DNA from: Dechloromonas sp. H13
Lineage (GTDB): Bacteria > Pseudomonadota > Gammaproteobacteria > Burkholderiales > Rhodocyclaceae
NCBI RefSeq assembly: GCF_009469615.1
Contig: NZ_SSXX01000001.1
Coordinates: 682,001-746,000 of the forward strand
Length of the DNA stretch: 64,000 bases
Direction: 5' to 3'
Part shown: in pieces, positions 31,408-45,421 of the stretch
Numbering within the stretch: position 1 is the stretch's first letter
Layout of the letters: each line of letters starts with the position of its first letter
The notes under the pieces: model-generated
The model's database searches: none
Told to the model about the DNA's origin: nothing
The model's input: the letters and a program-made list of their open reading frames with translations, nothing else
Position numbers and translations under genes: made by a program

Positions 31408-33354
31408 ATGGCCAACTCGTGCTTTGACCCCGCCGACGCGGACGCCCACCCCGGCGCATTCGCCGCGCTGGCCGATCCGTTCCGCCGCCGCCTGCTGTCG
31501 GCCGCCGCACTGACCGCCGCCGGCGGTGCCCTGGCCGGCGTCGGGATCCCGCTGCCCAGCCTGGCCGCCAGCGCCGGCCGGGCGGCCGGCGCGCTCCACG
31601 CCTTCACCGGCATTCCGCCATCGACCGCCGACGCGGTGCTGCTGCCCGACGGCTACGCGGCCAGCCTGCTTTACGCCTGGGGCGATCCGATCTCCGACGG
31701 CCCGCGCGCCCGTGCCGACGCCGGCGACGACGCCACCGCCCAGTTGCAGCAGGCCGGCATGCACCACGACGGCATGCATTTCTTCCCGTTCATCGAACAC
31801 GGCAGGCCGTCGTCGACGCACGGCCTGCTCTGCATCAACCACGAATACACCGACGACGGCCTGCTGCACCGCGACGGCATGCACGACTGGAGCGCCGACA
31901 AGGTGGCGAAATCGAAGGCCGCGCACGGCGTTTCGGTGATCGAGGTGCGCCGCGACAAGGAGGGCTGGCAGGTCGTCCGTCCGTCCCGCCTGGCACGCCG
32001 CATCAGCGCCGACACCCCGTGCCGCGTCGCCGGCCCGGCGCGCAACCACCCGGCCCTGGTCACGGCCGGCGACCGGCGCGGCGAAGTCGTCCTCGGCACC
32101 GTCAACAACTGCGCGATGGGCGTCACGCCGTGGGGCACCTACCTGACCTGCGAGGAGAATTTCAACGGCTATTTCAGGGGCCCGCCGACGCCGAGCGCCG
32201 ACCAGAAACGCTACGGCCTGACCGAGAAGGGCTTCGGTTTTCGCTGGCACGAGCACGACGAGCGTTTCGACGCGACGCGCCACCCCAACGAGGTGAACCG
32301 CTTCGGCTGGGTCGTCGAGATCGACCCGTGGGATCCGCAAAAGCCGCCGGTCAAGCGCACCGCGCTCGGCCGCTTCAAGCACGAGGGCGCCACCTGCACC
32401 CTCGCCGGCGACGGCCGCGTGGTCGTCTACATGGGCGACGACGAGCGTTTCGAGTACGTCTATAAATTCGTCTCGCGCGACCGCTACCGGCCTGGCCACC
32501 CGGACAACGCCAATCTGCTCGACACCGGCACGCTCTATGTCGCGCGCTTCGACAACGACGGCCAGGGCCGCTGGCTGCCCCTGCGCCACGGCGAAAACTA
32601 CCCGAACGGCGCGTTGATCGCAGCCAACGGCTTCGCCGGCCAGGGCGACGTGGCGATCCGCTGCCGCCAGGCCGCCGACCTCGCCGGCGCGACGAAGATG
32701 GACCGCCCCGAGTGGATCGCCGTGCATCCAGAGAGCGGCGAGGTCTATGTCACCCTGACCAACAACGGCAAGCGTGGCACGCCCGAGGTGCCCGGCCTCA
32801 ACGCCGCCAACCCGCGCCCGGAAAACCATTTCGGGCACATCGTCCGCTGGCGCGAAAACGGCCATGACGCGGCGGCGACCGCCTTCGAATGGGACATTTT
32901 CGCGTTGGCCGGCGATCCGCAGAACCCCAACGCGAACAAGCAGGGCAACATCCGTGGCGACGCCTACGGCAGCCCGGACGGCCTGTGGTTCGATCCAGAC
33001 GGCCGGCTGTGGATCCAGACCGACATATCGACCAGCGTACTGAACCAGGGTGACTTCGCCAACCTCGGCAACAACCAGATGCTGGTCGCCGACGTCAAAA
33101 GCGGCGAAACCCGCCGCTTTCTGACCGGGCCACGGGGCTGCGAGTTGACCGGCATCACCGCGACGCCGGACGGCCGGACGCTGTTCGTCAATATCCAGCA
33201 CCCCGGCGAAACGGCCAGCGAGCGCTCCGATCCGGCCAACCCGACGGCTGTTTCCGCCTGGCCGGCCAACCAGTTCCCGCAGGCGGTCGGCGGCCGCCCG
33301 CGCTCGGCAACGATCGCCATCACCCGGCCCGACGGCAAGCCGGTCGCGGCCTGA
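31408..33354 (+). CDS. phoX: PhoX-family alkaline phosphatase (DUF839)
   Basis: A 648-residue phosphatase that releases phosphate from organic phosphomonoesters outside the cytoplasm, using Ca/Fe cofactors. A long N-terminus carries a twin-arginine-like signal (DPFRRRLLSAAALTAAGG, about 24-41), as expected for Tat-exported PhoX. Family motifs: LLCINHEYTDDGL, WGTYLTCEENFNGYF, NEVNRFGWVVEIDPW, GSPDGLWFDPDGRLWIQTD and LTGPRGCELTGI. Length is normal. The Pho box upstream fits phosphate control. A TTG one codon upstream of the ATG is possible but unlikely. Confidence 0.92.
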   Translation: MANSCFDPADADAHPGAFAALADPFRRRLLSAAALTAAGGALAGVGIPLPSLAASAGRAAGALHAFTGIPPSTADAVLLPDGYAASLLYAWGDPISDGPRARADAGDDATAQLQQAGMHHDGMHFFPFIEHGRPSSTHGLLCINHEYTDDGLLHRDGMHDWSADKVAKSKAAHGVSVIEVRRDKEGWQVVRPSRLARRISADTPCRVAGPARNHPALVTAGDRRGEVVLGTVNNCAMGVTPWGTYLTCEENFNGYFRGPPTPSADQKRYGLTEKGFGFRWHEHDERFDATRHPNEVNRFGWVVEIDPWDPQKPPVKRTALGRFKHEGATCTLAGDGRVVVYMGDDERFEYVYKFVSRDRYRPGHPDNANLLDTGTLYVARFDNDGQGRWLPLRHGENYPNGALIAANGFAGQGDVAIRCRQAADLAGATKMDRPEWIAVHPESGEVYVTLTNNGKRGTPEVPGLNAANPRPENHFGHIVRWRENGHDAAATAFEWDIFALAGDPQNPNANKQGNIRGDAYGSPDGLWFDPDGRLWIQTDISTSVLNQGDFANLGNNQMLVADVKSGETRRFLTGPRGCELTGITATPDGRTLFVNIQHPGETASERSDPANPTAVSAWPANQFPQAVGGRPRSATIAITRPDGKPVAA

Positions 33355-33364
33355 CCAAAAAGCG

Positions 33365-33389
33365 GAAACCCCGCCGCAGCGGGGTTTCC
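33365..33389. terminator. intrinsic terminator between phoX and yggX
   Basis: GAAACCCCGC-CGCA-GCGGGGTTTC preceded by an A-run. It is placed between two convergent genes and could serve both. Confidence 0.75.
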
Positions 33390-33407
33390 TCGGGGCCGGT
33401 CCGGCGC

Positions 33408-33680
33408 TCAGGCCTTGGGCGGAACGTAGCCCTGGATCTGGTCGGCGCCTTCGCCGAAGAAATGCTTCTCGACCTGCTCGGTCAGGTACTTGCGGTGGCG
33501 GGCATCGACCAGGTTGAGGCGGTTCTCGTTGATGATCATGGTCTGCATCTTGATCCACTGCTGCCAGGCTTCCTTCGAGACGTTCTCGAAGATGCGCTGG
33601 CCGAGCGCGCCGGGATAGGGCGGGAAATCGAGACCTTCGGCTTCGCGGCCGAGCTTGATGCAATTGACGGTACGTGCCAT
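33408..33680 (-). CDS. yggX: Fe(II)-trafficking / oxidative-damage protection protein
   Basis: A 90-residue YggX-family protein: [20 protein letters not shown] with the conserved C7, then [21 protein letters not shown]. It protects iron-sulfur clusters from oxidation. It normally follows argA in related bacteria; here the original argA 3' end (stop codon at 33711-33713) survives 30 bp upstream, but the rest of argA is 8.9 kb away beyond the integrated element. Confidence 0.94.
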
Positions 33681-33709
33681 GTGAAACTCCGTAGGTGACA
33701 GTGCGGTGG

Positions 33710-33738
33710 ATTATAAAGTCTTGAACAGACTCTTTGAA
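33710..33738 (-). promoter_or_regulatory. candidate hybrid promoter for yggX at the element junction
   Basis: TTCAAA (33738-33733, element DNA) and TATAAT (33715-33710, old argA end) on the minus strand are separated by 17 bp. If functional, the insertion created a new promoter for the displaced yggX. Confidence 0.4.
33718..33728 (-). other. attL core (chromosomal argA end)
   Basis: Minus strand CTGTTCAAGACTTTATAA (33728-33711) still encodes Leu-Phe-Lys-Thr-Leu-stop, the original C-terminus of ArgA, now cut off from its gene. Confidence 0.75.
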
Positions 33739-34130
33739 TCGGCCGCAAAGCCAGTAAACATAATGGTTTGATGTTTTCCGATTTCCTCTAGCTACCAATG
33801 TAGCCACACAAAAACCGGCCGCTGGGGACATTCTACCCAATGCCGGCCGGCCTTCCATCCTACCCCCTCCATTTTTCCCGCTGATACCCCCCCTCCCTTA
33901 TTTCGCGCCGCTGCCCAAAGAGGGGAGCGGCCGGTCTAGGGCCAATGCACCCTAGACTTTTTAACCCCCCCTCCCCATCTGGAAACCCCCGCACGAAAAA
34001 ATCTATCTATGCGCTCGGCGCCCGGAATGGGAAGCCTAGACTTTTATAACCCCCTTGGTGTCGCCCTATAACTAGACAGCAAGCGGGGTGCGAATTACCC
34101 GCAGGATGAAAGGCCAGGAAGGACCCGCAA
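33729..34130. other. left end of the element, non-coding
   Basis: No gene seen. It has TAGCTAC (33789-33795) and TAGCCACA (33801-33808), matching sequences near the integrase and likely arm-type sites. C-runs follow, and a direct repeat CCTAGACTTTT with TAACCCCC is found at 33951-33969 and 34035-34054. Confidence 0.5.
34114..34130 (+). repeat. 17-bp direct repeat flanking the DUF772 gene, left copy
   Basis: CCAGGAAGGACCCGCAA, repeated exactly at 34706-34722. Confidence 0.6.
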
Positions 34131-34628
34131 CTAGGCCAGGGGTTGCCGCCTGAATATCGGCTCCCGAATGTAGCCCGGTCGAAACGCCAAGCCCTGCAAC
34201 AGAAAGGACCGCTCCACAATCACACCGAAGCGCCCCAACACCCCGGCCGCGTCAAGGCTGGTTCTGAATGCCCGCAAGGCGGACGCGGACGGGGGGCGCG
34301 GTTGCCAGGGGTCGGTCCCGACAAACAGGGCCAGGGCGTAGGAATCGAGAATGGCGTTTTCGGTTGCATCGTCGGACAGCTCCCAAACCTCTTGGACAAC
34401 CCGGCAGCGCATCATCATTGCCAGGCTGTACCCCTTCCGGCCGCGCTTACGTTGGTCTGCCTGGTAATGGGGCCGGCATAGCGCCTCAAGATCGGGCCAA
34501 TTCACCGTCTGTTCGATCAAGCCTAGGGCGACCGCTCGGGAAGGCTGGCGGGCTTTCGGCCAGCGCACAGAGCCAAACAGGCTTGGCCGGACTGCACCCG
34601 CTAAATTGTAATTTTCTCGTCTGGTCAT
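34131..34628 (-). pseudogene. IS5-type transposase N-terminal (DUF772) remnant
   Basis: A 165-residue open frame with the DUF772 helix-rich domain found at the N-terminus of IS5/IS1182 transposases: NWPDLEALCRPHY, GRKGYSLAMMMRCRVVQEVWELSDDATENAIL and ALRAFRTSLDAAG. The DDE catalytic domain is missing; translation stops at the 17-bp repeat. It could be a truncated insertion sequence or a domesticated stand-alone DUF772 protein. The intact frame favours recent loss or function, which I cannot decide. Confidence 0.6.
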
Positions 34629-34705
34629 TGTTTTAGAAATTTCACTATGTTGAGAACTTGCCGCCTGAACGTTTCACGCGCGCGAATGGACCCGCCCGCT
34701 TGATC

Positions 34706-34722
34706 CCCAGGAAGGACCCGCA
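34706..34722 (+). repeat. 17-bp direct repeat flanking the DUF772 gene, right copy
   Basis: Exact match to 34114-34130; the two copies bracket the transposase remnant and its upstream region. Confidence 0.6.
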
Positions 34723-34815
34723 AGCCCTGCCCCGCCCTCTGCCTGGTCGTCTTGCCAGGGCTTTTTCTGACGCAAAACAATTTCCGCCGCGCCCCCTACG
34801 CGCGCCCGGTTGCAG

Positions 34816-34975
34816 GGCTTTTCTTCTTACCCCTACCGAAATACGCCGGGACAACCGGGACAACCGGGACAAACGCCGGAAACCCTTGCCAATAGGGCGT
34901 CTAGTGTTTCCATTCTGCATATTTACGCCGGGACACAGCCGGGACACGCCGGGACACTTCAGAATCAGGACGTTG
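34816..34975 (+). repeat. long inverted repeat of the element, left arm, with iterons
   Basis: About 160 bp, nearly identical in reverse complement to 40983-41142. It contains three tandem CCGGGACAA units (34857 region) and, after a unique middle (TCTAGTGTTTCCATTCTGCA), three CCGGGACAC units. Iterons in this form often bind a replication initiator. Confidence 0.8.
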
Positions 34976-35063
34976 CATGACGGGCGCAGGGCTACAAATA
35001 CGGGCGCGCCATCGCGTCCCGCATCGCCCCCCGGCGCGTTCGCTTTGGGGATGTACCGGCAGC

Positions 35064-35402
35064 TCATAAGCCCGGCCATCTGTCCCGCCCTGGTCGCTGG
35101 TCGGGGTCGCCCGGCTGGGGTTTGAAACCCTCGCAGCGGCGCAGCCAATCCGGGGCGGGTGCATAGGTCCGGCTGGCGACAACCTCCCGGCGGGCGACCG
35201 CCAGGCAGCGCCCATTGCCCGCCAGATTGCCGCACTCCGCACAGCGCCGCCGGTTGTCCCCGCGCCGCTCGGGGTCGCCAATGCCAGGCAGTCCGGCCGG
35301 CATGCCCGCCCCCTCGCTTGCTGGCGTCTTTGCCTGTCCCGCATCGGGCAGCGCCGGGGGCCGGGCATCGCCCCCGGATAACATGCCGTCCCAATCAATC
35401 AT
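35064..35402 (-). CDS. small Cys-motif protein after the primase gene
   Basis: A 112-residue protein with CAECGNLAGNGRC (possible zinc site) followed by RRCEGFKPQPGDPDQR. Proteins with a CxxC-x(n)-GRCLA...RRCEGF layout commonly follow primase genes in integrative elements, as far as I recall; the function is unknown. The ATG lies 8 bp inside the end of the primase gene, so the two are coupled. Confidence 0.65.
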   Translation of the reverse strand: MIDWDGMLSGGDARPPALPDAGQAKTPASEGAGMPAGLPGIGDPERRGDNRRRCAECGNLAGNGRCLAVARREVVASRTYAPAPDWLRRCEGFKPQPGDPDQRPGRDRWPGL

Positions 35403-38232
35403 CGTCGGACTCAAACAGCGCCGGCAGGATATGAACCACGCGGGCGCGCCCCTCGGTCGGCAGGCTCTCACGGACCAACCACGGGCGGTCCGTTTCGCTG
35501 CCCTTGCGGCAATACCCCTTGGCGACCAGCAAACGCCCCACGGCCGCCGCGTCGTATCCCTTGCAAACCACGCCGCGCCAAGCCTCGTTAAACAGGAAAT
35601 ACTCTTGGCTCTCGTTGCCCTCGGCATCAAGGCAGCCGCGCCGATAGCCGGCACGGTCCGGCTTGCCCGGCGCGTGTTTGTCCGTGTCGTTCGCCGGCCG
35701 GTCCCAATCCGTGAAAGCCGATTCGCCCTTGCGCCGGATAAATTCGCGGACTTGGCGCAGCATGGCCTTTTCTTCCTGGTTCCCTTGCCCGCCGCGCCGC
35801 GATAGCCAGGCACTAAAACAGGTGCGGGCCGCTTGCAGCGCCTCGCCAGGCTGCCAGCCGGTAATCCCCCATTTGGTCGCCAGCTCACCCGCCGCCCCGA
35901 CCAGGGCAAAGCGCCCGGCAACCCGCCGCGCTTGCCCATGCGCCGCGTCGTTCAGGCAATGCGCCTCAAACTTTCGTTGCGCCTCGCGGACCAGCTCGGG
36001 GACCGCCTCTTGATTGCTTGCCAGCTTCGCAACGAAGGCATGAAACGCCGTTCCGTAATGCCGGCGGGCGGCCCGGTCTAGCGCCATGGCAAACTCGCTG
36101 CCGGTCGCGTAATCATGCAGATTCTCGAACACCCCCAAGCCGGCCCCGGCATCGGCCGGAATCTCTGCCAGGCGTAGTTCCTGCCCGGCTCTCGGGGTCT
36201 TGCCGATTTCCCCCAAATGCTCAGACAGCCCGATTTCACCGCATGACAGGAACAGCAGCCGCCAGCTTGCCCGGTCCCGCGCGCCGCCGGTCCGCGCCGC
36301 CCGGCTCTTGCCGCTGCCGTTCGCCAGCATGTAGCAGGTTTCGCCGGCCTCGCGGGGTTCCATTTGGGCCAGCTCATCAAGCAACAGGGGCGCGTCACAA
36401 TGGGCGCTCGCCAGGGCTTCCAGGCCGTTTGACGTTGCCCGCCAGCGTTGCATGTAATCCGCGCCGCCGCACACCGAAGCGGCAACCCGTAGCGCCGTCG
36501 TCTTGCCGTCGCTGGAATTGCTGCGAAAGTGAAAGCCGCCGGACTCAGCGCCAATCAGGAACAGCAAGGGCGAAGCGAAGCACACGGACACCGCAAACAA
36601 CAGCCGGGAATTGCCGCCGCACAGGCGCGCAACCTCGCGTTGCCATTCGTTCAGGTTGCCGCGCATGGCAAAGGTATGCACCGGCCCGCCCTCGCTTTCG
36701 TAAATCCACGCCCCCGCATTCGGGCCGATAGCGCCGCCAGGCAAGACAAACGCCGCGCCCTCGGGGCCGGCATCATGCCAGCCGGTCCGCTGGGTTACGC
36801 GGGCGCGCGCTTTCGGGCTGGCAGTCTGCAAGTATTCGACCAGCGCCGGCCGGCCGCGCGGCGCGATCCGCAAGCCCTGGTCAAGCAACAGCCCTGCAAC
36901 CTCGGCACCATCGCCGCGAAAAAGCGCCGCCGGAATAATCACCCGGTGCGGCGCGCGGTCGGGGTCGTCAAACTCGCAGAGCAAACCCCAGCCGGCGTTT
37001 TTTGGGTCCCGCACCATTGCGGCAACATGCAGCGGCGCGCACACCCAGCGCCGGGCGTCGTCTTGTCCAACCTGCCAAACGCCCTTGGCGTCCACCTGAA
37101 AGCGCCCGCTCTTGGGGGCCTCGCTGGCGTCCGTCGCCGCTGCCTTGCCGGCGGCCGGCTGCACCGGGCGCAGCGTGTCGGGGTCTTGCATCAATAGCGC
37201 CGCATGGGCAGCGGTCCAACCACGGGCGACCAAATCGGCCGCGTCGTCACCATTGGCCAAGGGTTCGCCATCGGCCAGCGGCGCAACCCCCTCCGCCTCG
37301 ATAGCCCGCCGGGCGAAGGCTGCCAGGTTGAAAACTGACACTTTCCCGGCGTTGACCGCAGCCAGCGCCGCCGCAATATCCCGCATAGCCTTTTCGCCGG
37401 GCGCGTCGGCATCAGGCCAAAGCAAGCATTCACGGCCGGCCAAGGGCCGCCAATCCGCCTTGGCGACCGCTTGCGCCCCGCCTTGCCAGGTAATCACCGG
37501 GTTTTCAGGGAACAGCAGCGCCGCCGCATCGCGGGCTTTCTCGCCCTCCACGATCAGCACCGGGCCGGGCTTCGCCGCCAGATCGGGCAAGCCCAGCAAC
37601 GGACGCGGCGCGGGCGGGGCCTTGAATTGCCATTGCTGCCGGCCATCTGAAAAACGCCACAGGGTCAAGGGCGAAAACTGCTTGCGCTCGCCTTTTGGCT
37701 CATAGCGATCATGGAAGAAGCACAGCGCGCCGGCCGCGTCCGTGTAAGCCCAGCGCGCCGCCGGCTTGCCGTGTCGGGAATGGACAGCCGGCGGGGCCGG
37801 GGCATCCTCGGGGACCGGCATAACGCACGCCGCGCCATCGGTCGGCGGGGCTTCCGGCTGCTTTTTCTCGGGGCTTGATACCCTACCCCGGCCCGCCTCG
37901 CGTTCGCCCGGCTGGCGTTGATTCTGGCGGTCTGATTTGGCGATCCCGAGATAATCCGCCAGCCGTTCCGCCGCTTCGATCTGCCGGCAGTCCAGGACAT
38001 AGGCAGCCAGGGCGACCAAATCCCCGCCCCGGTCGTCTGTAGCGAATTCGGACCACGCCCCGGAATCGCGGTTAATCGACAGGCTGCCGGGCTTGTGGTC
38101 ATTCCTGGTCGGGTTGATCGGTTGATATTCGCGCGCCTGGTTCTTTCCGCCGGACAGGCCAAGCAAACCCATAACCCCGTCGAAGTCCGCCAGCGCCGCC
38201 GCTGCGACCTTGCCGATAAAGTCATTCGCCAT
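35395..38232 (-). CDS. DUF927-type primase/helicase of the element
   Basis: A 945-residue replication protein. An N-terminal region with DRGGDLVALAAYV resembles the primase/CHC-adjacent part. A Toprim-like domain follows (PVLIVEGEKARDAAALL near 228; LLWPDADAPGEKAM near 268). The DUF927 helicase-like domain covers about 400-640, with a Walker-A-like SSDGKTTAL (near 573). This is the architecture of P4-alpha-like proteins that start replication of satellites. It lies between the two iteron-bearing inverted repeats, its likely binding sites. No frameshift or internal stop. Confidence 0.85.
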   Translation of the reverse strand: MANDFIGKVAAAALADFDGVMGLLGLSGGKNQAREYQPINPTRNDHKPGSLSINRDSGAWSEFATDDRGGDLVALAAYVLDCRQIEAAERLADYLGIAKSDRQNQRQPGEREAGRGRVSSPEKKQPEAPPTDGAACVMPVPEDAPAPPAVHSRHGKPAARWAYTDAAGALCFFHDRYEPKGERKQFSPLTLWRFSDGRQQWQFKAPPAPRPLLGLPDLAAKPGPVLIVEGEKARDAAALLFPENPVITWQGGAQAVAKADWRPLAGRECLLWPDADAPGEKAMRDIAAALAAVNAGKVSVFNLAAFARRAIEAEGVAPLADGEPLANGDDAADLVARGWTAAHAALLMQDPDTLRPVQPAAGKAAATDASEAPKSGRFQVDAKGVWQVGQDDARRWVCAPLHVAAMVRDPKNAGWGLLCEFDDPDRAPHRVIIPAALFRGDGAEVAGLLLDQGLRIAPRGRPALVEYLQTASPKARARVTQRTGWHDAGPEGAAFVLPGGAIGPNAGAWIYESEGGPVHTFAMRGNLNEWQREVARLCGGNSRLLFAVSVCFASPLLFLIGAESGGFHFRSNSSDGKTTALRVAASVCGGADYMQRWRATSNGLEALASAHCDAPLLLDELAQMEPREAGETCYMLANGSGKSRAARTGGARDRASWRLLFLSCGEIGLSEHLGEIGKTPRAGQELRLAEIPADAGAGLGVFENLHDYATGSEFAMALDRAARRHYGTAFHAFVAKLASNQEAVPELVREAQRKFEAHCLNDAAHGQARRVAGRFALVGAAGELATKWGITGWQPGEALQAARTCFSAWLSRRGGQGNQEEKAMLRQVREFIRRKGESAFTDWDRPANDTDKHAPGKPDRAGYRRGCLDAEGNESQEYFLFNEAWRGVVCKGYDAAAVGRLLVAKGYCRKGSETDRPWLVRESLPTEGRARVVHILPALFESDDD

Positions 38233-38656
38233 CGCCGGCCGCCCCTCTGGCAGCGCGCCGCGCCTTGCGGGCGCAGCTCCGACAAACCCCGGCGTTCATT
38301 TCCTCCCAATGCTCCGCAAGGTCAGACAAGCCGGACAACAGGGATTCATCAAGGGATTCCAGCCGCCGGTCAAAGACGGTAGCCAGGTCCGACAGCCCGC
38401 GCTCGCTGGCGTCCGCCAGGGCTTCCAGCCCCTCGGAAAAGACCCAGCTCTGATATTCGCGCGCTTGCGCTTCGATCATTGCGGCAACCAACGGGGCGAA
38501 CTGGACAGCAAAGGCGGCCGGCTCATTTGCCAGGGACTTTTCAAGCCCTAGACGCTCGGCAAGCAAACGCAGCGACGCGCAAAGATAATTGCTCGCAGAA
38601 TCGCCGGCTTGGCGCGTAGCATCGGATGCCGCGAAACCAACACGGGCCGCGCTCAT
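38222..38656 (-). CDS. hypothetical helical protein between alpA and primase
   Basis: A 144-residue, mainly helical protein ending in a Cys-containing basic tail (NAGVCRSCARKARRAARG). The start overlaps the alpA stop (ATGA) and its end overlaps the primase start by 11 bp, so alpA, this gene and the primase form one coupled operon. No family recognised. Confidence 0.65.
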   Translation of the reverse strand: MSAARVGFAASDATRQAGDSASNYLCASLRLLAERLGLEKSLANEPAAFAVQFAPLVAAMIEAQAREYQSWVFSEGLEALADASERGLSDLATVFDRRLESLDESLLSGLSDLAEHWEEMNAGVCRSCARKARRAARGAAGDGE

Positions 38657-38877
38657 TTCGCCCCCCCGGCCGCGTTGATTTTCGACTGAATCCAGGCGTC
38701 GACCGCAGCAGCCGGCAAGGCGCTTGCCCGCTCGCCAATCTTGACCAGCGGACCCAGGCGGCCGGCCTTGATCTCTCGATAGACTTGGGAAACCGAAACA
38801 CCCATGCGGCGCGCGGCCATAGGGACGCGCTCGATAGCCGGGCGCGCGGCTGCACTCTCGTTGGTTTGGTTTTGCAT
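38653..38877 (-). CDS. alpA: AlpA-family regulator/excisionase
   Basis: A 74-residue winged-helix-type DNA-binding protein: RVPMAARRMGVSVSQVYREI, then KAGRLGPLVKIGERASALP, then VDAWIQSKI. AlpA proteins act as transcription activators or excisionases in P4-like and other elements. It heads the replication operon. Its ribosome site (AAAGGTGAATC) and ATG lie inside a nested palindrome (38876-38922), suggesting self-repression or RNA folding control. Confidence 0.82.
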   Translation of the reverse strand: MQNQTNESAAARPAIERVPMAARRMGVSVSQVYREIKAGRLGPLVKIGERASALPAAAVDAWIQSKINAAGGAK

Positions 38878-38922
38878 GATTCACCTTTCAATGGCACGGC
38901 AAAGCGCCGTGCGGTGAATCAT
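38876..38922. promoter_or_regulatory. nested palindrome over the alpA ribosome site
   Basis: Outer arms ATGATTCACC and GGTGAATCAT pair perfectly; inside, GCACGGC-AAAGC-GCCGTGC pairs perfectly too. The arm nearest alpA contains its Shine-Dalgarno AGGTG and the A of the start codon. Confidence 0.65.
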
Positions 38923-38958
38923 CCGAATCCGATAGCCGCCCCGAAACGGCCTAAAAAA

Positions 38959-39645
38959 TTATCGGCCGGGCCGAATAATCGAAATAATTTTCGGCCCCCT
39001 ACGGGCTTTCAGCTCCGCCAGCCCGTCGCCCGGCTCAAACTCACCCAGGACAATACGTACAGCAGGAAGGCTAGCTACACGCTCGCCCATTCCCGATTCC
39101 CAGGCAAGCGCCCCATACCCGAGAATTTCCAGCCCCCCGTCTGGCGTTTCGTAAACGGTTGGTCTTTTAATCAGGATGGAACATGCCGGCGGGCCTTCGC
39201 CGGCCGTCGAATCGTCAATGATGCAGTGCAAGTCTTTTTCGAGATCAAGGCCAATTGCCGCCGCAAGCGGATTGCGGATTTTTCGGATTTTGTCGCCCCC
39301 GGAATACTTGAATTCGGCTGCTATCTGGTCGTCAGACTCGCCTTTTTTTTCCCCGAGTTCCGCACATCGCAGCGCCCACGCCAGCAATGCCGCCATATGC
39401 TTTTCATCGGCGCGCGGCCGGCCGGGGCCTTTGGCATCTGGCAGCGCGCTAAGCGGAAATCCATCAATACTTACTTGGCCGATACGCCGGCCGGCTTTGT
39501 TCAACAACGCCCCCGAGATCAACCCCGTTTGCCCTTCACGATGCAGAATTTTGAAGTCGACAGACCCTAAAAAATGGTCAGGCGCGCTAGCTTGCCCTAT
39601 TAAGGAAATTTCAGCCGCCAGGGGGTTTTTCTTGCTCACTACCAC
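38959..39645 (-). CDS. hypothetical element protein
   Basis: A 228-residue soluble protein. The middle part, GRPRADEKHMAALLAWALRC followed by ESDDQIAAEFKYSGGDKIRKIRNPLA, looks like a helical DNA-binding or replication-accessory region. The C-terminal half is beta-rich and ends KIISIIRPGR. I do not recognise it. It begins 8 bp after the upstream 99-residue gene and shares its strand, so likely the same transcript. Confidence 0.6.
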   Translation of the reverse strand: MVVSKKNPLAAEISLIGQASAPDHFLGSVDFKILHREGQTGLISGALLNKAGRRIGQVSIDGFPLSALPDAKGPGRPRADEKHMAALLAWALRCAELGEKKGESDDQIAAEFKYSGGDKIRKIRNPLAAAIGLDLEKDLHCIIDDSTAGEGPPACSILIKRPTVYETPDGGLEILGYGALAWESGMGERVASLPAVRIVLGEFEPGDGLAELKARRGPKIISIIRPGR

Positions 39646-39653
39646 GGCCGGCC

Positions 39654-39953
39654 CTACCGATAAAACCGCGCCGCCGGGTAGCTCTCGCGTATTTTGGCCT
39701 TGACCGCTTCCCGGTCGCCAGCTCGCAGGAACATTTCAACCGGCGCGGAATGGGTCGATTCGTCACACGCCCAAAACAGCGGCGCGCCAAGCCCCCAATA
39801 CGCCCCGCCCTGGTCATAGCCGCCGGCATCAATCCGCAGGCGTTGCAGGTGGAATTTATACGGCAGATCGGCCGGGCCGGGCTTGGCGGCCCTGCCCATA
39901 TCCGCGCCCCGGCTGGAAAAGGCTTTGGCTAGCGTCTTGGTTTGCTCTTTCAT
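39654..39953 (-). CDS. hypothetical 99-residue element protein
   Basis: A small protein with LPYKFHLQRLRIDAGGYDQGGAYWGLGAPLFWA and an aromatic-rich centre. Similar small proteins, as far as I recall, occur beside HigBA in integrative elements, but no function is known. Its ATG overlaps the higA stop by 4 bp. Confidence 0.6.
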   Translation of the reverse strand: MKEQTKTLAKAFSSRGADMGRAAKPGPADLPYKFHLQRLRIDAGGYDQGGAYWGLGAPLFWACDESTHSAPVEMFLRAGDREAVKAKIRESYPAARFYR

Positions 39954-40252
39954 GCCGCCAGCCTCTCGATTCCCTCATACTCGCCCGCCCTAGTCCTGGT
40001 CAGCTCCCACAGGTCTAGCGCCTCTTGCATTCGCAGCCAGCTTTCCGGCGTCGTTCCAGTCAGCTTGCCCAGGCGGATAGCCAGATCAGCGGACAAGCCG
40101 CGTTTTTCGTGCAGCAGTTCGGAAACCGTCAGGCGCGAAACCGCCAGCCGGCGCGCGAATTCGGTTTGGGTCATACCCAGGGCCGGCAACACATCCTCAC
40201 GAAGAATCGCGCCGGGGTGCGTCGGCTTGCGGTTGGGGTTGCGTAGGGTCAT
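39950..40252 (-). CDS. higA: HigA-family antitoxin
   Basis: A 100-residue XRE-type helix-turn-helix antitoxin: HPGAILREDVLPALGMTQTEFARRL, then LTVSELLHEKRGLSADLAIRL. It neutralises HigB and represses the pair. Its start overlaps the higB stop by one base, giving the toxin-first order typical of higBA. It probably stabilises the element in the host. Confidence 0.93.
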   Translation of the reverse strand: MTLRNPNRKPTHPGAILREDVLPALGMTQTEFARRLAVSRLTVSELLHEKRGLSADLAIRLGKLTGTTPESWLRMQEALDLWELTRTRAGEYEGIERLAA

Positions 40253-40530
40253 CAGTGGTAATCCTCCAAATCAACGTCGACGGCATCTTCGCCGTCGAAA
40301 GCGAACGTGATTCGCCAATTACCCGACACGCTCACGGCGTAACGCTTGGGGTCAAAACCCGTCAGTCCGTGAAAGGCGAAGCCCGGCAGGTTCATATCCT
40401 CGGGACGGCCGGCGGAATCCAGGCGGTCTAGCAGGCGCTCGATTCGGGGGCCGTGTTTGGCGTTTATGCCGCGCTTGTCCCCCTCCGAGAAAAACCGCAA
40501 CAGCCCTTTGTGTCGAATGCTGCGAATCAT
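40252..40530 (-). CDS. higB: HigB-family toxin (RelE superfamily)
   Basis: A 92-residue ribosome-dependent mRNA interferase of the HigB/'plasmid maintenance killer' type: MIRSIRHKGLLRFFSEGDKRGI, then RLLDRLDSAGRPEDMNLPGFAFHGLTG and NWRITFAFDGEDAVDVDLEDYH. The C-terminal R/H/Y region is conserved. The ATG at 40530 is preferred over an ATG 18 bp upstream. It is the first gene of the pair. Confidence 0.93.
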   Translation of the reverse strand: MIRSIRHKGLLRFFSEGDKRGINAKHGPRIERLLDRLDSAGRPEDMNLPGFAFHGLTGFDPKRYAVSVSGNWRITFAFDGEDAVDVDLEDYH

Positions 40531-40569
40531 CGGGACATTGTAATGCAATACATTACAAACACAAGCTGC

Positions 40570-40899
40570 TCAGGCTTGCCGGACGCTTACGGCAACCGCC
40601 AGGGCCTCGGCATAGGCCAGCCGGGCGCGATGCACAAGGCGCAGGGCATGGGCAGCCGCAACAGCGGCCGATTCCTGCCGGCATTCCACAGCATCGCCCG
40701 CGAAATCCTTTTCAACCGCCAGGCGCAGCAGGTCTAGCACGGCCTCGGCTGCCATCAGGTCGCCAAGCGGGCCGGCCGGCGGGTAATCCGGGGGCTGTGC
40801 CTCGCTCGCCTTGAACGTGGTCAGCACGGCGTCAAATGACGTTTCGCGGGGGCGCTCGATTGGCGCAACCGGGACAGCCACACGGGCAGCTTTCGCCAT
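40570..40899 (-). CDS. hypothetical 109-residue element protein
   Basis: An Ala-rich, helical protein (AAEAVLDLLRLAVEKDFAGDA...AHALRLVHRARLAYAEAL) with a proline-rich middle. It is the most upstream gene of the left-going cluster, just inside the right inverted-repeat arm. No family recognised. Confidence 0.5.
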   Translation of the reverse strand: MAKAARVAVPVAPIERPRETSFDAVLTTFKASEAQPPDYPPAGPLGDLMAAEAVLDLLRLAVEKDFAGDAVECRQESAAVAAAHALRLVHRARLAYAEALAVAVSVRQA

Positions 40900-40982
40900 G
40901 TTTTCACCCTCTCATTTCATCACCGCGCCGGCCTTCCGGGACGGTCCCGGCAGTGCCCTTGCGCGGCATTTCGCACGGCCTG

Positions 40983-41142
40983 AAACGTCCTGATAACGAA
41001 TTGTCCCGGCGTGTCCCGGCTGTGTCCCGGCGTAAATATGCAGAATGGAAACACTAGACTGCCTATTGGCAAGGCTTTCCGGCGTTTGTCCCGGTTGTCC
41101 CGGTTGTCCCGGCGTATTTCGATAGGGGTAGGGAGAAAAGCC
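40983..41142 (-). repeat. long inverted repeat of the element, right arm, with iterons
   Basis: Reverse complement of the left arm at 34816-34975 with a few mismatches and one small gap. It starts 8 bp beyond the integrase stop. It has the same three CCGGGACAA and three CCGGGACAC units. Confidence 0.8.
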
Positions 41143-41150
41143 GGTGTTTT

Positions 41151-42404
41151 TCATGCGCTGCGCTTGCCGGACTTGATCGGAATAACCTTGTCCGCCTTGC
41201 CCTTTTCACATTGCGCCAATAGATCGGCCAAGGCCCCCAGCGCCGCCCGCCGTTCCTCGAAATAATCATGCACGTTATAGACCGCCTCGATACCCTTGGC
41301 CGGCTTGTGGTTCAGGCACATTTCGGCAATGTAGGGGGCGACACCTAGGGCCGCCAGATGTGTGCGGGCCGTCCGGCGCAGATCGTGCACGGTGAATGGG
41401 TCAAGGTCAGATTTCAGCATGTACAGCGCATGGTTCAGGGTCGTTTCGCTCATGTGTCCGGTCGTCTTGCCGGGCATGGTTCGCTGCATCGGGAAAACGT
41501 AGGCATTGAAGCGGCGCGCCGCCTGTTCTTTCAGGACGGCAAGCACCCAGGGCGACAGCGGAATGCGGATTGCTTCCTCGGTCTTGGTCCGCTCGGCTGG
41601 GATATGCCATTCACCGGCCGCCAGGTCGAATTCGTCCCAGGTTGCTTTCAGCAATTCCATTTTGCGGACGCCGGTAGCCAGCAACAGCTTTAGCGCCGCT
41701 GCCGAATGGGGCGGGAAATTGGGCTGGGTCTGCATGGCCTTGAAGAACTTGACCAACTCGGCACGGGACAAGACACGACTACGCGGCCCAACTTTGCCGC
41801 CAAGGTCTTTCCAGCCATAGGGGGCGGCCGGATTCGCCGCGATGATATGGCGCTTCATGGCGTAGTCGAAAAGCGCCTTGGTCAATTGCAGGGCCTTGCG
41901 GGCGGTCTGCACGATGCCGCGATCCGTCAGGGGGCGCAGCATGGCGTCTACGTCCGCCGGCCTGACTTCCGTTACTTGCAACCGCCCCAGCTTTGGGAGA
42001 ATGTGCAGGGCAAAGACCCCCGAAACCTGTTTCGGCTCTTTCCGCTGCCCTTCGATCTGCCGGCCGTACCAATCATCGTACAGAGCTTGCACGGTTTCCG
42101 TTTTCGCCAAGACCGCCGCCCGCGCCGCCGCCCGCTTCTGGTTCTGTTTGGCCTCGGCAACGTCGATACCCTTGGCAACCTCTACCCGTTTTTCTGCCGC
42201 CAGCTCGCGGGCCTTGGTCAGGGTCAGATCGGGGTAACGCCCCAGGGTCAATTCCTTTGCCTTGCCGGCGAAGCGATAGCGCAGCGTCCACGCCGCCGTT
42301 CCCTTGGCGGAAAGGGTGAAGGTCAAGCCGTCACCATCGGTTTTGGCAATTGGCGCGCCGGCCTTGATCCAATTCCGCAGCTCAACATCAGTCAGCTTTC
42401 CCAC
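41151..42404 (-). CDS. int: tyrosine integrase, P4 type (DUF4102 N-domain)
   Basis: A 417-residue site-specific recombinase. The N-terminal DUF4102 domain (about 1-90) has ELRNWIKAGAPIAKTDGDGL and ELTLGRYPDLTLTKAR. Catalytic residues are R247 (ATGVRKMELL), H340-x2-R343 (VHDLRRTARTH), H366 and nucleophile Y376. I chose the GTG at 42404 because AGGAGG lies 8 bp upstream; a GTG at 42425 is the longer option. It is placed at the argA end of the element and should catalyse integration there. Confidence 0.93.
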   Translation of the reverse strand: MGKLTDVELRNWIKAGAPIAKTDGDGLTFTLSAKGTAAWTLRYRFAGKAKELTLGRYPDLTLTKARELAAEKRVEVAKGIDVAEAKQNQKRAAARAAVLAKTETVQALYDDWYGRQIEGQRKEPKQVSGVFALHILPKLGRLQVTEVRPADVDAMLRPLTDRGIVQTARKALQLTKALFDYAMKRHIIAANPAAPYGWKDLGGKVGPRSRVLSRAELVKFFKAMQTQPNFPPHSAAALKLLLATGVRKMELLKATWDEFDLAAGEWHIPAERTKTEEAIRIPLSPWVLAVLKEQAARRFNAYVFPMQRTMPGKTTGHMSETTLNHALYMLKSDLDPFTVHDLRRTARTHLAALGVAPYIAEMCLNHKPAKGIEAVYNVHDYFEERRAALGALADLLAQCEKGKADKVIPIKSGKRSA

Positions 42405-42599
42405 GGCAAAACCTCCTAGCCACACAGAGTTTCAAAAGCTACACAGCATTTCGTGTAGTCAGATCATTAGCCACCTGCCTAGCTACACACAAATTATGCG
42501 CTGTCTAGCTACGTTACGCAACGAACAGACATAAAAAAACCCGGAAAATCCGGTTGTTAGTTGTTTAGCTGCGATGTTGTGAAACGTCCTGAAACAGCA
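42405..42599. other. right end of the element with putative integrase arm sites
   Basis: Repeats of TAGC(C/T)ACA occur at 42417-42426, 42437-42446 (AGCTACACA), 42468-42474, 42479-42488 and 42506-42512, matching two sites at the left end. These look like arm-type binding sites beside the integrase gene. Confidence 0.55.
42533..42555 (-). terminator. terminator supplied by the element downstream of argA
   Basis: Minus strand CCGGATTTTCCGG followed by GTTTTTTTAT. It stops argA transcription 45 bp past its new stop codon and shields the integrase region. Confidence 0.7.
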
Positions 42600-43919
42600 T
42601 CAAAGGGTTTTGAACAGCACCTTGGAGCGCCGCTGATAGTTGTACATGTCGCGCTTTCTGGCCGGCAGGTCGTCGACCGTGCCCAGCTTGAAGCCGCGCT
42701 CGACGAACCAGTGCTCGGTGCGCGTGGTCAGCACGAACAGGCGCTTGATGCCGGCTTTTTTGGCCCGGCGCTCGATGCGTTTCATCAACTGTTCGCCGTA
42801 GCCCCATTCGCGGTGCTCGGGGCCGACCGCCAGGCAGGCGAGCTCGGCCTCCTCGTCGGAATGACTGTAGAGCGCCGCGCAGCCGACAATGATTCCGTCG
42901 TGCTCGACGATGGAGAAATGCTCGATCTCGCGCTCCAGCAGTTCGCGCGGACGATGGACGAGGATGCCTTCGGCCTCCATCGGCTCGATCAGCGCGATCA
43001 GCGCACCGATGTCGTCCGGCTTGGCTTCGCGGATGCTTTCCAGGGATTCGCGGGTGACGACGGTGCCGACCCCGTCGTGGGTGAACAGCTCGCGCAGCAG
43101 CGCACCGTCCTGCCCGAAGCCGATCAGGTGCACGCGCCCGACCCCGCCGCGGCTGGCGCGCAACGCGCAGGGCAGGTAGCGGCGGATGTCCGGCGACAGC
43201 CATTCGCCGGTCGTCATCAGCTCAGCCACTTCGTCGGCGGTCATCGCGTCGCGCAACTCCCCGGAAGGATCGGTGACGCCCTGGCTGTCGGTCAGGTAGA
43301 CCAGCTTGTCGGCGCGGATGGCGACCGCCACCCCCTCGGCGGCTTCCTCCATCTGCAGGTTGAAGATCTCGCCGGTCGGCGACGGCCCCTCGCAGTTGAG
43401 CAGGACGATGTTGCCGAGGCCGAGCTGGGCGTTGATGCCTTCGGCATCGACCTTGCGCACCTTGCCGGCGTAGTGCATGTCGATGCCGTCGAGGACGCCG
43501 ATCGGCTGGCCGGTGATGAAATTGCCGCCGATCACGCGGATGCGGCTGTTGGCCATCGGCGTGTTGGGCAGGCCCTGCGACAGCATGGCCTCGATCTCCA
43601 GATAGACGCTGCCGACGGCGTCGAGCACGCAGTCGAGCGTTTCGGCATCGGTGATGCGGTAGCCGCGGTGGTATTTCGACTCCAGGTTCTTCTCGCGCAG
43701 CTCCTCCTCGATCTGCGGCCGCGCGCCGTGCACCAGCACCAGGCGGATGCCCAGGCTGACCAACAGGTTGACATCGTAGGCCAGCGTCTTGGCGAACTCG
43801 CTGGCGACCGCCTTGCCGCCGAAGGCGATGACGAAGGTCTTGCCGCGAAAGGCGTTGATGTAGGGCGTGACCGCCCGGAACCAGGAAACGAAGTGTTCGT
43901 CGTAAGGGGTATCGCTCAT
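42600..43919 (-). CDS. argA: N-acetylglutamate synthase (3' end replaced by the element)
   Basis: A 439-residue two-domain enzyme for the first step of arginine synthesis: an amino-acid-kinase-like N-domain (VIAFGGKAVASEFAKTLAYD, GIRLVLVHGARPQIEEEL) and a C-terminal GNAT domain (ELACLAVGPEHREWGYGEQL). The last codons CTG TTC AAA ACC CTT TGA (42617-42600) come from the integrated element; the chromosomal version CTG TTC AAG ACT TTA TAA lies at 33728-33711. Both encode LFKTL, so the protein is unchanged. The ATG overlaps the pap stop by 4 bp (ATGA). Confidence 0.95.
   Translation of the reverse strand: MSDTPYDEHFVSWFRAVTPYINAFRGKTFVIAFGGKAVASEFAKTLAYDVNLLVSLGIRLVLVHGARPQIEEELREKNLESKYHRGYRITDAETLDCVLDAVGSVYLEIEAMLSQGLPNTPMANSRIRVIGGNFITGQPIGVLDGIDMHYAGKVRKVDAEGINAQLGLGNIVLLNCEGPSPTGEIFNLQMEEAAEGVAVAIRADKLVYLTDSQGVTDPSGELRDAMTADEVAELMTTGEWLSPDIRRYLPCALRASRGGVGRVHLIGFGQDGALLRELFTHDGVGTVVTRESLESIREAKPDDIGALIALIEPMEAEGILVHRPRELLEREIEHFSIVEHDGIIVGCAALYSHSDEEAELACLAVGPEHREWGYGEQLMKRIERRAKKAGIKRLFVLTTRTEHWFVERGFKLGTVDDLPARKRDMYNYQRRSKVLFKTL
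42607..42617 (-). other. attR core (element-borne argA end)
   Basis: Minus strand CTGTTCAAAAC, the crossover region shared with attL; the bases that follow (CCTTTGA) belong to the element and rebuild the argA stop. Confidence 0.75.
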
Positions 43920-45421
43920 TTCCGTGCGTATTTTCCGTCGTCGATTTTCAGCGCGCCCTCGAGGCGTTCGCAAATGGTTTTCAGCACCTTGGCGCGTGCA
44001 TAGTTCTTGTCGTTGGCCTCGACCAGGGTCCACGGCGCGAGGCCGGTCGAGGTGCGGTCGACCATGTCGCAGGCGGCATTCACGTAGTCGTCCCAGCGCC
44101 CGCGGTTGCGCCAGTCCTCCTCGGTGATCTTGAAGCGCTTGAAGTCGGTCGCCTCGCGCTCCTTGAAGCGGCGCAACTGCTCGTCGGCGCTGATCTGCAG
44201 CCAGAACTTGACGACCACGACGCCGGCCTCGACCAGCTGGTGTTCGAAATCGTTGATCTCGGCGTAGGCGCGCAGCCAGTCCGCCTCGGAACAGAAGCCC
44301 TCGACCCGCTCGACCAGCACCCGGCCGTACCACGAGCGGTCGAAGACCGCCATCCGGCCGCTGCGCGGAATATGCCGCCAGAAACGCCAGAGGTAGGGCT
44401 GGGCGCGCTCCTCCTCTGTCGGCGCGGCGATCGGGATGATCTGGTACTGGCGGGCGTCGAGCGCCGCCGCCACGCGGCGGATGCTGCCACCCTTGCCGGC
44501 TGCGTCGGAGCCCTCGAAAACCGCCACCAGCGAGCGTTTGCCGATAAAGCGCGGATCGCGCACCAGTTCCGAAAGCTGTGCCTGGTATTTGGCCAGGTCG
44601 CGCTCGTAGGCTTTCTTTTCCAGCTTGCGCGTCAGGTCGAGCTCACTGAGCACGGTCTTCTGGTCGATGGTCTGGATCACCGGCGGCGCCACCGGCACCT
44701 GCTGGCGCCCCTGCTGCAGGCGGCGCTGTATGGCGTCGAGGACGATGCGTCCGACGGTCAGCGAACGGTAGGCGTCATCGGTGCCCTCGACGATGATCCA
44801 CGGCGCCTTGGCGGTGTTGGTCACGCGCAGGACATGGCCGGCGACCTCCTGCAGCTTGTCGTAGGTTTTCAGGCGGTCGTAGCTCTCCTTGGTCACCCGC
44901 CAGGCGGTGCGCGGATTGCTCTCCAGCGCCTTCAGGCGCTTCTTCTGGCCGTCCTTGGAAAGATGGAACCAGAACTTGAGCACCAGCGCCCCCTCGTTGA
45001 CCAGCATCGCCTCGAAGCGGTTGATGTTGTCGAGCTGGTCATCCATCTTGGTGCGCCGCATTTCGCCGGCGATGCGGTCGGTGATCGGCTGCGAATACCA
45101 GGAACCGGCGAAGATGCCGACCTTGCCGCGCGGCGGCAGCGCCCGCCAGTAGCGCCACATGTAGGGCCGCGATCGTTCCTCGTCGCTCGGCGCCGAAAAG
45201 GCCAGGGTCGAGATGTGGCGCGGGTCCATCCACGAATAGAGCAGGTTGATGGTTTCGCCCTTGCCGCTGCCATCGACCCCGCTGATCAGGATGACGACCG
45301 GGAAATCCTTCTTCTCCAGCATGTCGTACTGGACGTCGAGCAGCGCAGCGCGCAGCTTGGGCACCTCCTTCTTGAAGGTTTCCTTGTCGATGGTGTGGCC
45401 CAGTTCCGCCGATTCAAACAT
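43916..45421 (-). CDS. pap: polyphosphate:AMP phosphotransferase (two-domain PPK2, class II)
   Basis: A 501-residue enzyme that makes ADP from AMP and polyphosphate. Two PPK2 domains are in tandem: the first has ISGVDGSGKGETIN (Walker A about 47-56) and the second FEGSDAAGKGGSIRR (about 303-313), each with its RSWY-type lid (FAGSWYSQ; FDRSWYGRVLVER). Fused double domains mark class II PAP. Together with phoBRU-pst this points to active phosphate storage. It is upstream of argA with a 4-bp overlap. Confidence 0.93.
   Translation of the reverse strand: MFESAELGHTIDKETFKKEVPKLRAALLDVQYDMLEKKDFPVVILISGVDGSGKGETINLLYSWMDPRHISTLAFSAPSDEERSRPYMWRYWRALPPRGKVGIFAGSWYSQPITDRIAGEMRRTKMDDQLDNINRFEAMLVNEGALVLKFWFHLSKDGQKKRLKALESNPRTAWRVTKESYDRLKTYDKLQEVAGHVLRVTNTAKAPWIIVEGTDDAYRSLTVGRIVLDAIQRRLQQGRQQVPVAPPVIQTIDQKTVLSELDLTRKLEKKAYERDLAKYQAQLSELVRDPRFIGKRSLVAVFEGSDAAGKGGSIRRVAAALDARQYQIIPIAAPTEEERAQPYLWRFWRHIPRSGRMAVFDRSWYGRVLVERVEGFCSEADWLRAYAEINDFEHQLVEAGVVVVKFWLQISADEQLRRFKEREATDFKRFKITEEDWRNRGRWDDYVNAACDMVDRTSTGLAPWTLVEANDKNYARAKVLKTICERLEGALKIDDGKYARK

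Follow-up and report, generated by a model that had tools for sequence, protein, structure and literature searches.

We analyzed a stretch of 64,000 nucleotides from Dechloromonas sp. H13 (contig NZ_SSXX01000001.1, positions 682,001 to 746,000; hereafter, the window) and found an integrative element of 8,889 bp, core to core, between argA and yggX (cores 42610-42617 and 33721-33728). We conclude with high confidence that this element entered by site-specific integration at the 3' end of argA via the sequence TGTTCAA, and that it supplies a replacement C-terminus for ArgA. The observations that carry this conclusion are the two junctions, the empty site in relatives, a pair of one empty and one occupied genome, the recurrence of a single integrase clade at argA, and the agreement of residues between differently spelled codons at the two ends. 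The following features of the window are central to the argument:

42600..43919, minus strand: argA (N-acetylglutamate synthase), 439 aa (Pfam AA_kinase and Acetyltransf_1); its end, from the third base of the Lys codon, is element DNA
42610..42617, minus strand: crossover block CTGTTCAA of the left attachment site (attL), from comparison with the right attachment site (attR) and empty sites
42600..42609, minus strand: element-borne replacement argA end, A ACC CTT TGA, same peptide as the displaced end in other bases
41151..42404, minus strand: tyrosine integrase, 417 aa, GTG start after AGGAGG (Pfam Phage_integrase 1.2e-19, Arm-DNA-bind_3, Phage_int_M)
33721..33728, minus strand: crossover block CTGTTCAA of attR, from junction and empty-site comparison
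33408..33680, minus strand: yggX (Fe(2+) trafficking protein; Pfam Iron_traffic 1.3e-43)

On the minus strand, argA ends with CTG TTC AAA ACC CTT TGA (42617-42600), and the displaced end, CTG TTC AAG ACT TTA TAA, is located at 33728-33711, 30 bp ahead of the yggX start (33680). Both encode Leu-Phe-Lys-Thr-Leu-stop, exactly as reported in an initial annotation that was made from the sequence alone. The same annotation described a shared core of 11 bp with one mismatch; this match is right, but the stretch in which the crossover could occur in the window is narrower, namely, the 8 bp CTGTTCAA, because host and element sequence diverge at the mismatch. The proposal that the element carries a replacement C-terminus keeping ArgA whole agrees with the empty sites, the genome pair and the ten integrase relatives described below, with the correction that the element-supplied part of argA starts only at the third base of the Lys codon, continues with Thr-Leu-stop, and includes nothing further upstream. 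The "rebuilt" end of that annotation is best read as an attachment site with codons that suit the host argA, a habit usual for such elements. A tRNA gene as the target was rejected: ARAGORN detected no tRNA or tmRNA gene in 32500-44500 of the window, in line with the view of the annotation that the target is a protein gene. Among 14 loci of related integrases that were checked, no tRNA gene was present in 13 within the stretches examined; the lone tRNA-bearing locus, L052, has a tRNA-Gly gene ~6.2 kb from the integrase (here and below, G numbers denote genomes and L numbers denote loci).

We classified 39 argA loci of the genus, leaving out G007 and G023, which have no true argA match. In 25 loci, the argA ending is uninterrupted and yggX follows directly downstream (<50 bp), which is the empty site that the annotation had predicted; in three loci (the window, G032 and G024), an integrase adjoins argA. 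The 25 empty sites end with TTATAA (23 cases) or CTATAA (2 cases), and their peptides are Leu-Phe-Lys-Thr-Leu in 22 cases and Leu-Cys-Lys-Thr-Leu, Leu-Phe-Lys-Ser-Leu and Leu-Leu-Lys-Asn-Leu in one case each. None of the 25 carries an ending of the element type, the observation that the annotation had named as counter-evidence. The argA gene of G017 has the exact AAAACCCTTTGA ending, which decides nothing because the contig ends 112 bp downstream. The argA gene of G004 ends with AAGAACCTTTGA and has no integrase match within 6,967 bp downstream, and that of G019 (L057) has the element-like ending AAAACTCTTTGA together with a TTTCAGGACG stretch and is followed by a katG-like gene, without an integrase, before yggX; thus, a TTTGA ending alone is no proof of an element. 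The argA end in G019 may be the scar of a lost element.

Genome G030 is empty, and its close relative G032 is occupied by an element with a core-to-core length of 35,061 bp. The flanks of the two genomes align with 96.3% (1,363 bases), 98.1% (365 bases) and 97.8% (867 bases) identity, and the alignments break at TGTTCAA. The bacterial attachment site (attB) of this pair reads GGTGCTGTTCAAGACCTTATAAT, attL reads GGTGCTGTTCAAAACTCTTTGA and attR reads AAAGCTATTGTTCAAGACCTTATAAT; therefore, the crossover is confined to TGTTCAA. In the G032 element (L053/L069) at argA, 5 of the 10 scanned proteins match WYL, ResIII, N6_N4 methylase, tubulin/FtsZ and DUF2779, and these are possibly defence cargo. 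The cargo is unlike that of the window element although the argA site is the same; thus, one integration module serves different cargoes. In several genomes, of which G019 with its katG-like gene is one, argA and yggX lie apart although no integrase is present, so that a chance rearrangement could be invoked to place unrelated DNA between the two genes. Nevertheless, the insertions recur at the same position and go with a single integrase clade, their ends match, and an empty genome has an occupied counterpart; we assign a practically negligible probability to a chance rearrangement.

The recurrence of site-specific integration at argA is evident from the relatives of the integrase, which were collected from 297 sampled family genomes (E <= 1e-100), 399 sampled order genomes (E <= 1e-95), and a pattern scan of genome contigs that yielded 9 confirmed loci. 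Three argA integrases were met twice and were counted once (L050 is the G071 contig, L049 is the G212 contig, and L047 is the G024 contig). The family sample and the contig scan contain 10 distinct integrases with at least 56% identity, and all 10 are located beside argA, as expected by the initial annotation for integrases of the same type. The order survey added four matches besides the window integrase, 45-47% identical. In a tree of 28 integrases, where the placement of the long zapD and phage rows is unsure, the argA group of 10 forms one clade (support 100/100), with the yicC integrases outside. Another 13 integrases, at 43-50% identity, adjoin the ends of other protein genes: yicC (10), bamC (2; NlpB/DapX lipoprotein) and zapD (1), with the target genes confirmed by Pfam in 9 cases and by tblastn with one YicC in the remaining 4. 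A Klebsiella relative of the integrase follows der, and an E. coli relative follows yicC. The matching phage records (578) are all below 60% identity, the best-ranked at 37.6%, and so are the matching plasmid records (1,659), the best-ranked at ~42% with one partial match at 45%; pattern scans of viral contigs with the integrase and with Rep, the primase-helicase of the element, gave nothing.

Matching ends lie 8.1-9.6 kb apart in L048, G158, G071 and G024, with little core remaining in G071. The ends of the G024 element (L063, ends 1390 and 10557) are identical over 18 bases, and yggX of this genome, which lacks the TATAAT box, is located 3.8 kb past the far element end, with a PPK2-like gene in between. 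A fuzzy repeat search for displaced ends, applied to 14 loci in stretches of at most ~39 kb, some ending early (yicC loci G125 and G291, in which the end pattern gave no definite point, were left out), recovered the displaced ends of G165 (bamC) and G024 (argA) and did not recover those of 8 yicC loci, zapD (L051), the second bamC (G076), L044 and L046. In L048 (10004-10426) and L046 (10001-10333), attL is followed by a separate stretch that codes for an integrase N-terminus, ahead of the full integrase; the extra stretch in L048 is an open reading frame (ORF) of 140 aa with the arm-binding domain only.

To characterize the replacement ends, we compared the last four codons on the element side with those of the displaced end; given the common ancestry of the elements, the pairs do not count as independent trials. 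The argA count omits L045, for a one-base difference between its sides, as well as L044, L046 and L049, for which only attL was available. Listing the element side before the displaced end, the pairs are KTL/KTL in the window and in G032 (5 base differences each) and in L048 (4 differences), KRL/KRL in G158 (3 differences), and KNL/KNL in G024 (0 differences over the 12 bases compared); for bamC in G165, the pair is QLK/QLK with 2 differences. In all six readable argA pairs, the variable residue of the element is that of the displaced host end (Thr in three pairs, and Arg, Pro and Asn); the ending is spelled with different bases in 5 of 6 pairs, and the codon of the variable residue itself differs in 4 of 6. 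The same number of random changes would spare the peptide with p = 8.5e-5 for the window, 6.5e-5 for G032, 1.1e-3 for L048, 1.3e-2 for G158 and 2.2e-2 for bamC in G165, and a random continuation after ...AA would give Lys-Thr-Leu-stop with p = 1.4e-4. Among the empty genomes of the genus of G158, G102 ends with Lys-Arg-Leu, and G195 and G225 end with Lys-Pro-Leu.

If similar cores are needed in attB and in the attachment site of the element (attP), the matching codons might be a mere by-product of how the integrase recognizes DNA, and no selection on the protein would be involved. The argA end is indeed an imperfect inverted repeat, AAGGT...ACCTT, of which 7-9 of 10 positions match in each of the four empty sites that we tested. 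From the junctions, attP appears to have TCAAAG...CTTTGA arms, as expected of core-type sites. The argA dyad is infrequent among random synonymous codings at three of the four sites (0.4%, 4% and 4%) but not at the fourth (20%). The codon argument against DNA recognition is further limited by the relatedness of the elements and by one pair, G071, that changes a residue. Conversely, four argA pairs (window, G032, L048 and G158) accumulated 3 to 5 base differences, changes in the first base of Leu and in the stop codon included, without any residue change, and the residue tracks the host (Thr, Arg, Pro or Asn), whereas DNA recognition alone offers no reason to spare the peptide. We consider the by-product explanation rather unlikely. 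Alternatively, the element might have brought an unlike end that was selected back to the host C-terminus during residence; host-specific matches are also expected from long residence, and the absence of differences in G024 is compatible with this history. However, the tail CTTTGA is common to several argA elements in different hosts (window, G032, L048, L044 and L046 among others), which points to inheritance with the element, and alteration after insertion appears to be distinctly improbable.

Several observations weigh against integration with an element-supplied argA end, the reading that we prefer. The G071 pair is KPL/QPL with 5 base differences, that is, one residue is changed (Lys on the element side, Gln in the displaced end), and little core is left. 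In L045, one side exceeds by a single base the length expected from a clean crossover. Of the 39 genus loci, 11 are neither empty nor integrase-bearing, partly through contig ends: yggX is located at +107 and +148 in two of these, and there is no yggX within the stretch examined in nine, some of these stretches being short. The integrase surveys cover samples only (297 family genomes, 399 order genomes and the 9 pattern-confirmed loci), neither a helper phage nor a transfer gene was found for the element, and the argA elements are known here from sequence alone, with excision, circle and transfer not seen.

Under the proposed mechanism, the tyrosine integrase would recombine TGTTCAA in the element circle with the same sequence in the last argA codons. 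The crossover would leave the native argA end (G ACY TTA TAA) beyond the element, beside yggX, and past the crossover, the element codons would give the same C-terminus and stop, followed by a terminator-like hairpin, so that ArgA would remain whole. The displaced piece on the yggX side would retain TATAAT, and thus, yggX could keep its -10 box. The junction predicted by this model is GATTCAAAGAGT-CTGTTCAA-AACCCTTTGA. We infer an active integrase, a possible role of the AlpA-like protein in driving excision, and possible replication of the circle by Rep and the iterons.

An exact TATAAT is present in 45 of 50 distinct yggX upstream regions, 32-43 bp before the start in 40 of them, and it is found upstream of yggX also where yggX is not beside argA. 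The TAA stop codon of argA falls inside TATAAT in the common empty site; this conserved hexamer is likely to be the -10 box of yggX. The window contains a hybrid of element and host sequence:

33710..33738, minus strand: hybrid promoter-like site for yggX, element TTCAAA, 17 bp, host TATAAT, 10/12 consensus positions

This site scores best among the 3 promoter-like sites of 33400-43000, against a chance expectation of 1.9. TTCAAA or TTAAAA from the element (4 of 6 consensus bases) is located exactly 17 bp before TATAAT in 4 of 7 occupied sites vs 2 of 43 other regions. A -35-like role of the element TTCAAA for yggX is our conjecture, and this role is possibly incidental because TTCAAA is likely to be an integrase core arm, too; yggX might be transcribed from the hybrid promoter. 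A broader scenario, toward which we are inclined to be skeptical, is that one integrase lineage hops among the 3' ends of the unrelated housekeeping genes yicC, bamC, zapD, der and argA, each time gaining, as its attachment site, a host-matched synonymous copy of the last codons. For argA, the core arms of attP would then serve as the integrase site, as the ArgA Leu-stop codons at one junction, and as a -35-like TTCAAA exactly 17 bp before the yggX -10 box at the other.

After argA, the minus-strand order is integrase (start ~200 bp from attL), small protein, HigB/HigA, two proteins, AlpA-like protein, 145-aa ORF, DUF927 protein, IS5-type piece and yggX. The remaining features of the element are:

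42541..42553, minus strand: terminator-like hairpin and T-run directly after the argA stop (scan of 33400-43000)
40972..41142, no strand: iteron arm A, 171 nt, an AT-rich stretch between two triplets of GGGACA-type iterons; copies arm B in inverted orientation (92% complementary)
40570..40899, minus strand: small protein, 109 aa, no Pfam, NCBIfam, PHROGs or PADLOC match
40252..40548, minus strand: HigB-like toxin (Pfam HigB-like_toxin 1.3e-12)
39950..40252, minus strand: HigA antitoxin (NCBIfam antidote_HigA 2e-29)
39654..39953, minus strand: protein, 99 aa, no match in the same four collections
38959..39645, minus strand: protein, 228 aa, no match in the same four collections
38653..38877, minus strand: AlpA/excisionase-type small DNA-binding protein (PHROG 66 "excisionase and transcriptional regulator" 2.1e-6)
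38222..38659, minus strand: possible gene, 145 aa, between the AlpA-like gene and Rep, no match in the same four collections
35395..38232, minus strand: primase-helicase (Rep), DUF927, 945 aa (Pfam DUF927 5.7e-83; PHROG 1139 DNA primase 3.1e-81)
34816..34986, no strand: iteron arm B, inverted counterpart of arm A
34131..34628, minus strand: N-terminal part of an IS5-type transposase, 165 aa, near attR (Pfam DUF772 4.3e-9, over cut-off)

The AlpA-like assignment is weak by score, with NCBIfam excise (6e-5) and Pfam HTH_17 (3.5e-5) both under the cut-off. The IS5-type piece also matches NCBIfam transpos_IS5_4 (1.8e-13, under the cut-off) over positions 5-117 of 285 and is probably a fragment. 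Terminator-like sites number 15 in 33400-43000 vs 11.7 expected, so that the hairpin after the argA stop is not significant alone; a similar hairpin, judged by eye, is found at the equivalent place in other elements. Twin inverted iteron arrays flank the replication module in all six Rep-bearing argA elements examined (window, L045, L048, L055, L056 and L063). The two arms of one element are 84-99% alike, always above the likeness of the same arm across elements (41-89%), a pattern suggestive of gene conversion or of arms that evolve jointly with Rep. Three copies of the motif CAGGACGTTKCA are present in the 64 kb (0.02 expected), at 42580-42591 by attL and at 40981-40992 and 34966-34977, one in each iteron arm; the latter two are within the inverted repeat and thus are not independent. 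From its positions, this motif may be a common site for the integrase, AlpA or Rep. No relaxase, conjugation or phage structural gene was detected by Pfam among 12 element ORFs, and no phage structural gene by PHROGs among the 10 element proteins scanned.

With these findings, argA joins the protein genes used as docking sites. In E. coli, e14 and phage 21 at icd supply a replacement 3' end, like the argA element, with a much longer replaced stretch and a different integrase and gene. The argA series, in which a single integrase clade meets hosts that have Thr, Arg, Pro or Asn at the variable codon, is a natural system for target change that leaves the gene whole. In addition, a defined integrase with a 7-bp core is on offer as a tool for Azonexaceae and Rhodocyclaceae, for which, to our knowledge, integration tools are few. 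In the part of the open-licence literature that was searched, argA was not found to be named as an integration site, although it may be catalogued in TIGER/Islander; matches to the term were to an author, a software tool and the genotype of a Bacillus strain. As a docking gene, argA appears to be new within that literature; docking at protein-gene ends and end rebuilding are already well known. For example, 43.4% of 1,757,053 mapped islands are within coding sequences (PMC12424338), and according to PMC12884075, many islands restore the gene entered.

The window element has an integrase by one junction, a direct core repeat and empty relatives, as does a fixed-site tyrosine-integrase element at a protein gene 3' end. 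The yicC 3' end is a known integration site (PMC8409611, PMC5704250, PMC8978831), and the yicC-specific elements (MGIVflInd1, MGIVchUSA1, yicC-type SGI1-like, Shewanella GI21/GISpuPO1) likewise use a tyrosine integrase and occupy the 3' end of a conserved protein gene. Their attachment sites are short, too (9 and 21 bp), and GI21 (PMC8978831) resembles the argA element in the order of integrase, hypothetical protein and AlpA-family excisionase. The integrase at the E. coli yicC end (L115) is 43% identical to that of the window; the named published yicC elements are likened by description. The yicC elements differ from the argA element in target gene and integrase clade, and the window integrase does not belong to the yicC-type family, given that the 10 relatives with at least 56% identity are at argA. 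Several published yicC elements are mobilised by conjugative plasmids or integrative and conjugative elements, whereas no transfer gene was found in the argA element. Gram-negative phage-inducible chromosomal islands combine integrase, AlpA-type regulator and primase/Rep in ~10 kb, as the window element does with an AlpA that is weak by score. Two iteron sets around an AT-rich stretch, described for these islands in PMC6092414, are also present in the window element, by eye against the Fig. 2 legend; the latter element differs in having two complete inverted iteron arrays and argA as the target. With P4-like satellites (core genes in PMC8628076), the element shares the P4-style integrase, AlpA-like protein and primase-helicase, whereas Psu, Sid and delta have no match among the 10 proteins scanned with PHROGs. 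It also differs from integrative and conjugative or mobilizable elements, relaxase and conjugation genes being absent among the 12 ORFs scanned with Pfam. Finally, a 12-kb circular E. coli "plasmid" record (L116, NZ_CP148430.1) has CAGATTCAGAATATCGAATAAGCTATCAG ahead of the integrase, as at the yicC end in L115, and looks like a free circle of a yicC-type relative.

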